35,386 nt of DNA from Micavibrio sp. (GTDB lineage Bacteria; Pseudomonadota; Alphaproteobacteria; Micavibrionales; Micavibrionaceae). Under the pieces are notes generated by a model that saw only the letters and a list, made by a program, of their open reading frames with translations, ran no database searches and was not told the origin of the DNA. This document shows positions 1-2,909 of the stretch, one piece after another. Made by a program: the position numbers and the translations under genes. How positions within the stretch are numbered: position 1 is the stretch's first letter; each line of letters starts with the position of its first letter. The stretch lies in NCBI GenBank assembly GCA_002708415.1, contig PANS01000028.1:1-35386 (forward strand). Direction: 5' to 3'.

Positions 1-126
1 ATCCTGCCAGTGAGATTTCCAGTTTTCACGCCTTGCCTTTGCTAACACATAGCGATCAATAAAGGGTTGAATTTCTACTGCCTCATCTGCGCGAACTTCA
101 TTTTTTTTATTTATATTCTCTATCAT
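1..126 (-). CDS. Phage head-to-tail connector (portal) protein, N-terminal fragment
   Basis: Too short for the ORF track and cut by the window edge. Reading the minus strand from ATG at 126 gives 42 codons without a stop, beginning MIENINKKNEVRADEAVEIQ and continuing to DRYVLAKARRENWKSHWQD. The pattern of an acidic start, a helix rich in A/R/K and then W-x-x-HWQD resembles the N-terminus of T7-like head-to-tail connector proteins, which form the dodecameric portal through which DNA is packaged. The start is supported by TTAGGAGAATAATA directly upstream and by a 2-base gap from the preceding stop codon. It is the fourth gene of a packed minus-strand operon. Only the first 42 residues are visible, so the family call rests on a short stretch; another virion protein is possible. 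Confidence 0.5.
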   Translation of the reverse strand, partial: MIENINKKNEVRADEAVEIQPFIDRYVLAKARRENWKSHWQD

Positions 127-128
127 TA

Positions 129-383
129 TTATTCTCCTAACAGCGTTTTACGCGTCGATTGTTCACCTTCAGAAAGAAAGCCTTTGAACCCTGTAAATAT
201 CGTACCTAAACGCCCCCTTGTGCGGCGAAGAAGACTCTCTTTTCTTTCTTCAGAAGTAACTTGAGCTTCGCTCGCCTCTGTACTAACTGCAGTAACCTCA
301 GGGCTTGTTGGATTATTGACGTAAATTGTTTTAACAGGAGGAACCTGTTTTGGAATTTTAGGACGTTTTGTTAAGCTACCCAT
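129..383 (-). CDS. Small basic phage-operon protein of unknown function
   Basis: The ORF track opens this frame at 461, but the likely start is the ATG at 383, giving 84 residues beginning MGSLTKRPKIPKQVPP. Directly before it the minus strand reads AAAGGAGAGCTCC, an excellent ribosome binding site, and this start overlaps the end of the preceding gene by only 13 bases. The N-terminal half is proline- and basic-rich with TIYVNNPTSPEV. The middle is Ser/Glu/Thr-rich and probably disordered, and the C-terminus has RRTRGRLGTIFTGFKGFL, a short amphipathic basic segment. I do not recognise the family. Its position immediately before a portal-like gene suggests a small virion accessory or assembly protein; that is inference from neighbourhood only. 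Confidence 0.6.
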   Translation of the reverse strand: MGSLTKRPKIPKQVPPVKTIYVNNPTSPEVTAVSTEASEAQVTSEERKESLLRRTRGRLGTIFTGFKGFLSEGEQSTRKTLLGE

Positions 384-832
384 TGGAGCTCTCCTTTCGT
401 AAACTGATCTTCTTGAATTTGTTTTTCTGCTTTGTTTGTTAGGCATTGATAAAGCTGCCATGGTGTAACCACAAAGCGCTTATGAATACCCAAAAGGCGC
501 TTAATTGCTTCGACACACGTGAACATCATTGGCGGCGCTGCTTTTTTCTGTTCTCTATTGATTGATGCCTTACAAATTTTATAGCCACGGCTTTCAAGCC
601 AAGATGGCAAATCAAAGCTTGGATTAAGATGATGATAAATTTGCACTTCTGTATAAGGCGAAAGCGGATCAATACTCATCCAGCGCTCTCCATCATTCAT
701 AAGAACAAAGCAATGCCTAAATCCTGGCTTTAAAAATTTAAGCCACGGTAAATCTGTTTCACCCGAAAAAATAACCCACGCGTTTTGTGACAGCTTTTCA
801 TTATTATCATTGTGTAATTGTTGATCTACCAT
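371..832 (-). CDS. Phage-operon protein, possible permuted papain-fold (NlpC/YiiX-like) enzyme
   Basis: 153 residues. The start at 832 is supported by AGCAGGGGACATC upstream and by a 7-base overlap with the previous gene. No signal peptide or membrane segment is visible. Visible pattern: a strand-like FRHCFVLM with His40, a following WMSIDPL with Asp55, and a later helix start FTCVEAIKRLLGI with Cys106, then TPWQLYQCL. A His on a strand preceding a Cys at a helix N-terminus is the order found in circularly permuted papain-like folds (YiiX/YaeF, LRAT-type), so a peptidase or amidase role is conceivable. I have only seen such sequences as uncharacterised proteins in phage-like clusters. The enzyme idea is inference; a structural protein is the alternative. 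Confidence 0.6.
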   Translation of the reverse strand: MVDQQLHNDNNEKLSQNAWVIFSGETDLPWLKFLKPGFRHCFVLMNDGERWMSIDPLSPYTEVQIYHHLNPSFDLPSWLESRGYKICKASINREQKKAAPPMMFTCVEAIKRLLGIHKRFVVTPWQLYQCLTNKAEKQIQEDQFTKGELQWVA

Positions 833-1386
833 GATGTCCCCTGCTCAATTGTATTTAGATGTGTCGTGCTTTTAATTGCGTTTAATGAAATATTGGAGCG
901 CACAGACGATGTTTTTTCATTGCCTTGATGCACAACCGCCCCGTGCGCCCAGAATTTATTCGGGCGATTGCAAGTCAGCTTTTTTGCGCGAACTATTCCC
1001 TTACGAACAAGAACAGGCTCAATACGATCAAGCGCTTCTTTCCAAAGCTTATGCGCTCGTACCTCTTTAATACGTCTTGGATCAGGCGGGATTTGACGGC
1101 GGCCATAATGACGTAGCACCAGTAAATGGTCACGCACCAAACGGCGATTGCGATATAAATTGTCTAAGATTTTTAAAATATCTGTTGGCTCACAATTGCG
1201 CGGCGTTATAGATAAACCAGCAGTAAAACGTGCGCCTTCATTCTTGGCCTCTTGCGCCTTAATAAACCAAAACCATGTTTCCACTGCGCTTTCAAATGGC
1301 ACTGTATCCATTTCAGGTTGGTGCTTTGGGGAATAAATTCTATCAGATGCCATTCTTTTTGTTCTTTCCTGTTTTCTTGATTTCAT
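826..1386 (-). CDS. Basic phage-operon protein of unknown function, first gene of the operon
   Basis: 186 residues, strongly basic, with no signal peptide or membrane segments. The core, roughly residues 35-130, is helical and highly charged: ETWFWFIKAQEAKNEGARF, then CEPTDILKILDNLYRNRRL, HLLVLRHYGRRQ and HKLWKEALDRIEPVLVRKGIV. The Ser/Thr/Asn-rich C-terminus is probably disordered. Start choice is uncertain: ATG at 1386 is the longest reading, while ATG at 1353 (MASDRIYSPKH) has a distant AGGAAAG upstream. Being first in the operon and carrying many Arg/Lys residues, it could bind nucleic acid, for example as a packaging or regulatory protein, but no motif proves this. A promoter with a LexA-type box lies directly upstream. 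Its stop overlaps the next gene by 7 bases. Confidence 0.65.
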   Translation of the reverse strand: MKSRKQERTKRMASDRIYSPKHQPEMDTVPFESAVETWFWFIKAQEAKNEGARFTAGLSITPRNCEPTDILKILDNLYRNRRLVRDHLLVLRHYGRRQIPPDPRRIKEVRAHKLWKEALDRIEPVLVRKGIVRAKKLTCNRPNKFWAHGAVVHQGNEKTSSVRSNISLNAIKSTTHLNTIEQGTSW

Positions 1387-1414
1387 AAGATATGTTCTCT
1401 TTTTAAACCTTTTT

Positions 1415-1429
1415 GTTCTCTTTATGTTC
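1415..1429 (-). promoter_or_regulatory. LexA (SOS) box, GTTC-N7-GTTC
   Basis: The plus strand reads GTTCTCTTTATGTTC, an exact match to the alphaproteobacterial LexA consensus GTTC-N7-GTTC. It lies just downstream of the -10 hexamer of the phage-operon promoter, where bound repressor would block transcription start. An extra GTTC half-site occurs at 1394. Binding is not shown, but spacing and placement are ideal. Confidence 0.7.
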
Positions 1430-1432
1430 CTA

Positions 1433-1461
1433 TTTATGATAGAGTGGTTTTATAAAGTCAA
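1433..1461 (-). promoter_or_regulatory. Sigma70-type promoter of the phage-like operon
   Basis: On the minus strand TTGACT (1456-1461) is followed after 17 bases by CATAAA (1433-1438). The -35 matches consensus at 5 of 6 positions and the -10 at 4 of 6. The predicted start site near 1426 falls inside the LexA box, leaving a leader of about 40 bases before the ATG at 1386. Confidence 0.5.
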
Positions 1462-1466
1462 GAGAA

Positions 1467-1488
1467 AAATAGGATTTATTTCCTATTT
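1467..1488. promoter_or_regulatory. Inverted repeat, probable operator between divergent genes
   Basis: AAATAGGA-TTTATT-TCCTATTT is a perfect 8-base inverted repeat with a 6-base spacer. A third copy of the half-site TCCTATTT lies at 1428-1435, overlapping the LexA box and the phage-operon -10. A TTGACG at 1494-1499 just beyond could be the -35 of the S24 regulator gene. The placement fits an operator for the adjacent S24 regulator; this is inferred, not shown. Confidence 0.45.
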
Positions 1489-1543
1489 ACTTTTTGACGC
1501 ATAAATGGGAGTTTAATCCTAATCGTAAAATGAGGACGGTGAG

Positions 1544-2194
1544 ATGCTCACACATGATAAGATTTGGCAAGCGGTAGACAGGCTCGCAACGTTATTTGGA
1601 TATAGCCCCTCTGGGCTTGCAAAACAGGCAGGGCTTGACCCAACATCATTCAATAAAAGCAAACGTTTTGGCGTTGATGGAAAACCACGCTGGCCTTCAA
1701 CAGAAAGTATTTCACGCATCTTGGGTGCAACAGGCGCCACGATGTCTGATTTCCTAAGCCTTATCGATGATGAGGTAGAGCAAGCAAGTCATAATAACGC
1801 ATTTAGTATCCCCGTTATCGGCTTCGCACAGGCGGGGACAAAGGGGTACTTTGACGAAGACGGCTATCCGCTTGGTGATAGTTGGGATGAAGTACAATTT
1901 CCGCAATTTGAGAAAGTCAGCGACAGCAAAGTTTACGCCCTTAAAATCAATGGCGATTCAATGGAACCGCTATACCGTAAAGGAGATGTTTTAATTGTTT
2001 CCCCTCACGCTAAAATCAAACGTGGTGATCGTATTGTAATTAAGACTACTGGTGGCGAAGTCATGGCTAAGCACCTTGCACGTCAAAATTCGAACGGTGT
2101 AGAGCTGAATTCCCTTAACCCTGCACACAACAATATAAAGATACCCAGCAATGATATTGCATGGATGGGAAGAATCCTCTGGGTTAGTCAGTAA
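1544..2194 (+). CDS. LexA-like helix-turn-helix regulator with S24 peptidase domain
   Basis: 216 residues. The N-terminal part (about 1-72) is a helix-turn-helix region with SPSGLAKQAGLDPTSFNKSK and RWPSTESISRILGATG. This matches a regulator type widespread on alphaproteobacterial chromosomes, not only in phages. The C-terminal part (about 88-216) is an S24/LexA-type self-cleaving domain. The probable cleavage bond is Ala97-Gly98 in FAQAGTKG, the nucleophile Ser139 in INGDSMEP and the general base Lys176 in VMAKHL, so all elements for RecA-stimulated autocleavage are present. It is transcribed away from the phage-type operon, and the shared 157-base spacer holds a LexA box and an inverted repeat. 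It probably represses itself and/or that operon and is relieved by DNA damage. It is not LexA itself: the N-terminal domain differs. Confidence 0.85.
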   Translation: MLTHDKIWQAVDRLATLFGYSPSGLAKQAGLDPTSFNKSKRFGVDGKPRWPSTESISRILGATGATMSDFLSLIDDEVEQASHNNAFSIPVIGFAQAGTKGYFDEDGYPLGDSWDEVQFPQFEKVSDSKVYALKINGDSMEPLYRKGDVLIVSPHAKIKRGDRIVIKTTGGEVMAKHLARQNSNGVELNSLNPAHNNIKIPSNDIAWMGRILWVSQ

Positions 2195-2243: not shown

Positions 2244-2909
2244 ATGGACAAACAAGAAATCGCCAAGAAATCGGCAGAAATACTTATCAATACAAAATGT
2301 GTAGGCTTTAACGCGGCCGAGCCTTTCGTGTATACATCAGGAGCCATTGGCCCTGTTTATGTTGATTGTCGCCGCCCTATTGCTTTTGCAAAAGAGCGTA
2401 ATCAACTGATGAGTTTTGCAACAGACATCTTAAAAGATCTAGGCATTGACTATGTTGCTGGCGGTGAAACTGCTGGTATTCCTTATGCGGCCTTCTTAGC
2501 AGAGCGCATGAACCTTCCAATGCTCTACGTTCGTAAGCAGCCAAAAGGCTTTGGACGCATGGGACAAATTGAAGGTCATTTTGAAGAGGGCTCTAATCCT
2601 AACGTTTTACTCGTTGAGGATTTACAACGTGATGGCGGATCAAAAGTGCCGTTCGTAAAAGCCCTTCGTCAAGCTGGCGCACAAGTTAAAGACAGCTTCG
2701 TTGTTTTTCATTACGGCACATTTGCAAAAAGTGAAGAGCGTATGAAAGAACTTTCAATGAACCTTCATGCGCTTTGTAATTGGTGGGATGTATTAGATGT
2801 TGCCAAAGAAAAAGGATACTTTGATGCGGCAACAATTGATTCAGTTGAACTCTTCTTAAATGATCCTGAAACATGGCAGGCGCAAAATGCGCACCTCAAA
2901 AAGGCCTAA
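2244..2909 (+). CDS. pyrE: Orotate phosphoribosyltransferase
   Basis: 221 residues. PyrE transfers phosphoribosyl from PRPP to orotate to give OMP, the fifth step of de novo pyrimidine synthesis, in the cytoplasm. The type I phosphoribosyltransferase fold is recognised by [16 protein letters not shown] near the start, [17 protein letters not shown] around residues 72-90, [17 protein letters not shown], and the PRPP-binding loop [14 protein letters not shown] near residue 120. Length fits the alphaproteobacterial form, which has a C-terminal helical extension of about 40 residues. The start is preceded by AAAAGGATCAAAGAC, a good ribosome binding site. NAD kinase follows after 19 bases, suggesting cotranscription. 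Confidence 0.95.

Follow-up and report, generated by a model that had tools for sequence, protein, structure and literature searches.

A putatively domesticated podovirus-type cassette of Micavibrionaceae carries a candidate host LexA box and paired operators of a dedicated repressor

Nearly all sequenced Micavibrionaceae carry a phage-derived gene cassette which probably encodes a damage-induced particle kept for the use of the host. Our preferred explanation, to which we assign a probability of about 70%, is that this is a domesticated GTA-like podovirus cassette under the direct control of host LexA as well as of a dedicated repressor, and that DNA damage induces particles which would probably package mostly host DNA. 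The window analysed here, a stretch of 35,386 nucleotides from Micavibrio sp., is contig C28 of a genome assembly of 1.37 Mb that is 77% complete. Its positions 1-1544 appear to comprise the control region and the first genes of the cassette.

Promoter and gene content of the cassette

The operon promoter, TTGACT-N17-CATAAA, reads leftwards on the minus strand. Its -35 element TTGACT is located at 1461-1456 (1456..1461, minus strand), with TTGACA/T kept in relatives, and a 17-nt spacer separates it from the -10 element CATAAA at 1438-1433 (1433..1438, minus strand). Directly after the -10 element, and occupying exactly 1415-1429 (1415..1429) of the window sequence, is the repeat GTTC-N7-GTTC (GTTCTCTTTATGTTC; GAACATAAAGAGAAC when read in the direction of the operon), a candidate LexA (SOS) box listed without strand. 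Since the box directly follows the -10 element, transcription is expected to start inside it. This arrangement is as the earlier note had described it, down to the positions, and the promoter does feed a phage-type gene set, as proposed there. This set comprises the genes at 826-1386, 371-832 and 129-461 and the start of a portal gene at 1-126. An Rfam search for an RNA element in the operon leader gave 0 matches.

The first gene on the minus strand, g1 (826..1386), encodes a small protein predicted by modelling to be all-helical. Its translation probably starts at codon 12 (~1353), where the homologues begin in the alignment, rather than at the annotated start. The product of the second gene, g2 (371..832, minus strand), is modelled with a mixed alpha/beta fold and has invariant R39-H40, D55 and C106 in the alignments. 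Both models are confident, and a PDB fold search found no match for either. These genes are followed on the same strand by g2b (129..461), coding for a small phage protein of phrog_831, and by the N-terminal 42 codons of a podovirus-type portal (1..126), which is cut by the contig end; the whole portal (PF12236) is present in relatives. The rest of the cassette of this genome, from portal to terminase, is on contig C2 (locus L158).

Where relatives have whole contigs, g1 and g2 are followed in order by the portal, a T7-type scaffold (PF05396), a PilZ-like gene and the capsid (PF19821), and downstream of the capsid by two T7-type tail tube proteins, a tail-region protein and a pectate-lyase-like tailspike (PF12708). 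The cassette ends with a terminase (PF17289), a cell-wall hydrolase (PF07486) and a GTA-type three-TM holin (PF11351). The operon thus continues into genes for portal, capsid, tail and terminase, the capsid and terminase being the genes that the earlier note had suggested looking for to the left of coordinate 1. All cassette genes are open in the cultured M. aeruginosavorus ARL-13 (G038), where the cassette is intact. Within the window's genus, everything from mid-capsid to holin is lost in G003 (L029:4768-5079), and an in-frame stop lies inside the portal gene of G001 (L020:2016-2018). In most family cassettes, the PilZ-like gene lies on the opposite strand between scaffold and capsid (e.g. 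L031:4022-4402, minus strand), its Pfam score being just below the curated cut-off.

Conservation of the box and its likely ligand

For a single site, a chance origin of the box would be acceptable. The window holds 2 matches to GTTC-N7-GTTC as compared to 0.76 expected, and at least 2 matches were obtained in 15 of 100 shuffles. The genome of the window contains 28 matches as compared to 38 for the reversed pattern; there is thus no genome-wide enrichment, and this count was left out as evidence. Several of the other matches in the genome fall within ORFs. Chance is ruled out, however, by conservation across relatives. The box is exact in 42 of 53 intergenic regions between the repressor gene and g1, against 0.21 expected. 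Among Micavibrionaceae genomes with g1, it is found at the same place exactly in 81/92 and within one mismatch in 87/92, while the proportion of control windows holding it is 1.5%. Using only the repressor operator and the TTGAC of the -35 element as anchors, the box was placed 29-33 nt past the start of the -35 element in 78 of 85 relatives. The distance is 31-32 nt in most of the relatives. A box not conserved in homologous operons, one of the findings which the earlier note had named as speaking against its LexA proposal, is therefore not what we observe.

LexA is encoded in all 10 genomes of the window's genus. The same motif is present in this genus ahead of recA (exact in 8/8) and of lexA (exact in 5/10, with one mismatch in 4 more), which favours host LexA as the ligand. 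The sequence features of an alphaproteobacterial LexA regulon are found together here, i.e. a site at the core promoter, a host LexA with boxes at recA and lexA, and conserved orthologous promoters. The proposal that the box is a LexA-type site is thus supported by the motif shared with recA and lexA and by its family-wide conservation at the start site. In the wider family, the recA gene has an exact box in just 17 of 29 readable genomes, and LexA specificity may therefore differ in some genera. Ahead of lexA, an overlapping double box, GTTC-N7-GTTC-N7-GTTC, was also seen (e.g. L136, L143).

Alternatively, the repeat at the start site could be bound by a factor other than LexA, either the HTH of the repressor or some further activator, or could be conserved as initially transcribed sequence. 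Inside the box, the seven bases ATAAAGg are nearly invariant in the window and 79 aligned relatives, unlike the interior of the recA and lexA boxes, and the conservation of ATAAAG exceeds what a LexA site needs. In addition, the HTH domain is kept even in the PyrE fusions described below. Against this, the GTTC-N7-GTTC direct repeat is the very motif of alphaproteobacterial LexA that is carried by recA and lexA in this genus, and Oleisolibacter and Niveispirillum lack the box but keep the HTH as well as a TAGGA operator, so that the HTH does not need it. A ligand other than LexA appears unlikely to us, and we retain host LexA as the probable one.

The box is absent in G005, G008 and G009, which belong to the window's own genus, and is also missing from most relatives beyond the family. 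In G008 (L032/L079), ~3.7 kb separates the repressor gene and g1, an apparent IS1595-type transposase ORF is seen, and the LexA box is gone.

A dedicated repressor and its operators

According to the earlier note, the operon would be induced independently of a dedicated phage repressor; the note had overlooked the divergent gene at 1544-2194. This gene (1544..2194, plus strand) encodes a dedicated HTH + S24 repressor of 216 aa (PF00717, E=5.9e-26; phrog_4, transcriptional repressor). In the alignment, the protein keeps the cleavage pair A97-G98 together with S139 and K176, that is, both the A-G pair and the Ser-Lys dyad, and judged by these residues it looks self-cleavable. Two operators of the repressor were recognised, both listed without strand. 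O2, a perfect TAGGA-N6-TCCTA (1470..1485), lies just upstream of the -35 element of the operon. O1, TGGGA-N6-TCCTA (1506..1521), lies 36 bp from O2 on the side of the repressor gene, where it would serve autoregulation of the repressor. In the window, the two operators overlap or adjoin the promoters beside the operon. TAGGA-N6-TCCTA palindromes, commonly paired 36 bp apart, are present within one mismatch in 50 of 53 regions, as compared to 0.27 expected. For the window, independence of a dedicated repressor is thus not supported, in view of the divergent HTH-S24 repressor, its intact cleavage residues and its two operators. The same claim fits better in sister genera whose repressor has lost cleavability.

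Classification of 83 family repressors gave 29 intact, 19 degenerate and 7 HTH-only proteins and 28 HTH-PyrE fusions. Self-cleavage is impossible in 54 of the 83, the S24 domain being degenerate, lost or replaced by PyrE, and of the 54 genomes with a non-cleavable repressor, 53 have the box with at most one mismatch. On a tree of portal, capsid and tail, repressor cleavability switches at least 4 times. Box loss was not significantly associated with an intact S24 domain (Fisher p=0.12). A strict rule confining box loss to genomes with an intact protease was rejected, being just a trend, with G015 and L119 as exceptions.

Fusion of the repressor HTH to PyrE

The pyrE gene, coding for orotate phosphoribosyltransferase, is a separate gene in the window (2244..2909, plus strand; NF001729 above cut-off) and is fused to the repressor HTH in a related clade. 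The in-frame fusion is found in 28 family genomes (e.g. L090:8911-9834, minus strand), has a length of about 300-316 aa and scores above the NCBIfam PyrE cut-off. In nearly all fused genomes examined, there is no second PyrE above the cut-off. G093 has two complete-looking cassette heads (L242, L251), both with HTH-PyrE fusions. On the tree of portal, capsid and tail, the fused rows form one group, which includes one HTH-only row.

PurR of Bacillus consists of a phosphoribosyltransferase fold and a DNA-binding domain. The Micavibrionaceae fusion resembles it in that a DNA-binding domain is joined to a phosphoribosyltransferase, but its enzyme is the sole PyrE of the cell, and its DNA-binding domain is the HTH of a phage repressor. 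The PyrE part is matched weakly by TIGR01743 (purR_Bsub). HTH-PyrE is a possible enzyme-repressor of a phage-derived cassette and, by analogy with PurR, could make pyrimidine or PRPP supply a second input.

Distribution and signs of domestication

A homologue of g1 is present in all 10 genomes of the window's genus. Family-wide, g1 was found in 94 of 104 genomes and the capsid in 88 of 104, nearly always in single copy, and most family loci share the gene order purC-nadK-pyrE-repressor-g1-g2-portal. Values of dN/dS are mostly 0.01-0.15 within the family and 0.10-0.33 between two Skermanella. The distances of portal and capsid correlate with the purC and nadK distances (Mantel r=0.70, 0 of 999 permutations). 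Synteny, single copy and purifying selection all fit the domesticated phage which the earlier note had considered. Class-wide, g1 is present in 28 of 190 sampled genomes, 26 of these outside the window's genus (26/188). A capsid homologue accompanies it in 24 of the 26 g1-carrying genomes outside the genus, as compared to 0 of 12 genomes without g1. The cassette is also present in Skermanella, Oleisolibacter and Niveispirillum. Particles have reportedly been seen in Azospirillum, in work of Boyer from 2008 cited in PMC3245306, and are reported to be induced by mitomycin. In G277 and G154, the two halves of the cassette, g1 to portal and capsid to terminase, are separated on a single contig by about 145 kb and 60 kb, and capsid and terminase are kept.

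We weighed the cassette as an ordinary temperate podovirus prophage with its own self-cleaving repressor, in which the GTTC repeat would be incidental or a phage-borne SOS box. The repressor of the window, with all cleavage residues and its operators, would suit such a prophage, as would the phage homologues of capsid and terminase and the listing of such cassettes in IMG/VR as viral contigs. However, the integrase or excision genes, own replication and mobile location of a temperate prophage are not what is seen. Most of the family shares one chromosomal flank of the cassette, the cassette distances track those of host genes, and a scan confined to the cassette ORFs (G001, G004 and ARL-13) found no integrase or replication gene. 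Its size is ~14-16 kb, as compared to 31-38 kb in most capsid-related phages. It is under purifying selection, and split halves have been retained. We consider a temperate prophage very unlikely. Three features of a GTA (viriform) are observed: chromosomal structural and packaging genes, vertical inheritance with purifying selection, and a cassette with no integration or replication module. A domesticated, GTA-like cassette remains the preferred reading.

A search of IMG/VR with a single g1 sequence gave no close relatives, and a search with a capsid profile gave at least 540. Among the best 80 of these (L301-L380), many are 9-18-kb viral records with the same layout. In viral databases these cassettes figure as short proviruses, and they may be included in phage counts. 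The 33-kb viral contig L307, with a capsid 72% identical and a portal just 30% identical, may come from a free phage relative. Pelagibacter phage EXVC031P and related podoviruses resemble the cassette in their capsid, which is 50% identical over 99%, but EXVC031P has a free phage genome of 34 kb as compared to a chromosomal cassette of ~15 kb.

The particle could also be a killing or prey-directed device of a predator and not a DNA-transfer agent. The Micavibrio hosts are epibiotic predators (PMC3189940), and the cassette encodes wall hydrolases and an unusually conserved tailspike (~75% within the genus). Portal and terminase, however, are under strong selection and would be needless for a DNA-free weapon. 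Furthermore, Skermanella, Oleisolibacter and Niveispirillum, which carry the cassette as well, are not known to be predators. We find a weapon improbable as compared to a particle which transfers DNA.

Comparison with known systems

Like RcGTA/CcGTA (Rhodogtaviriformidae), the cassette is a structural cluster of phage origin in Alphaproteobacteria that is inherited vertically and has no replication genes. RcGTA has a head-tail cluster of its own, whereas the portal, scaffold, capsid and tail of this cassette are all assigned by Pfam and PHROGs to podovirus/T7-type families and not to an RcGTA-type cluster. Going by these families, the cassette is independent of the RcGTA lineage. Control differs too: in the passage of PMC6363796 that cites Kuchinski 2016, LexA affects RcGTA indirectly via CckA, whereas the Micavibrionaceae cassette has the box at its structural promoter. 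RogA, an HTH + LexA/cI-like repressor with cleavage residues lost (PMC9632790), is the nearest regulator, and many Micavibrionaceae repressors have likewise lost these residues. RogA represses the activators gafYZ, whereas the operators of the Micavibrionaceae repressor are at the structural operon.

With lambda cI/S24 phage repressors and LexA-repressed phage genes, the system shares a divergent self-cleaving repressor, paired operators and SOS induction, the last being predicted here. It differs in that the operon also carries a box for host LexA, and in that the repressor protease was repeatedly lost in Micavibrionaceae. Our literature search, of incomplete coverage, found one podovirus-like GTA-like element, FpGTA of Faecalibacterium. 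In the excerpt of PMC12946183 (2026), its structural and lysis genes form two separated operons, which recalls some of the split cassettes. FpGTA has a Firmicute host and particles shown by experiment, whereas the Micavibrionaceae cassette is known from its genes and is compared here by description. Neither a LexA box nor a repressor fused to PyrE is reported in the same excerpt. For Micavibrio, the literature search, whose coverage was likewise partial, turned up no earlier account of a GTA, a prophage or this cassette.

Proposed control and its meaning

We propose that host LexA, at the box on the transcription start, would repress the particle operon directly, and that the divergent dedicated repressor would also silence it through the paired operators around the -35 element. 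DNA damage would activate RecA, leading to removal of LexA, and a repressor with intact S24, as in the window, would cut itself. The derepressed operon would yield podovirus-like particles packaging DNA, and the hydrolase and the GTA-type holin would bring about cell lysis. The particles most likely carry host DNA, as in GTA, since the cassette is without replication genes and is vertically inherited. In most sister genera, with a repressor incapable of self-cleavage, host LexA would be the only remaining direct input of DNA damage. In one clade, the DNA-binding domain of the repressor would now be part of the sole PyrE enzyme. A broader reading, for which we see an even chance, is that the cassette represents a separate podovirus-type GTA lineage under host SOS control, whose repressor lost damage sensing and in one clade became fused to PyrE, so that gene transfer would be tied to DNA damage and pyrimidine supply.

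If this is true, a tailed phage would have been domesticated a second time and separately, the resulting cassette being widespread in Alphaproteobacteria and present in cultured predatory bacteria, and hence testable now. It would also mean that control was handed over stepwise from the phage's own damage sensor to host LexA, and that a phage repressor became fused to an essential biosynthetic enzyme, PyrE.
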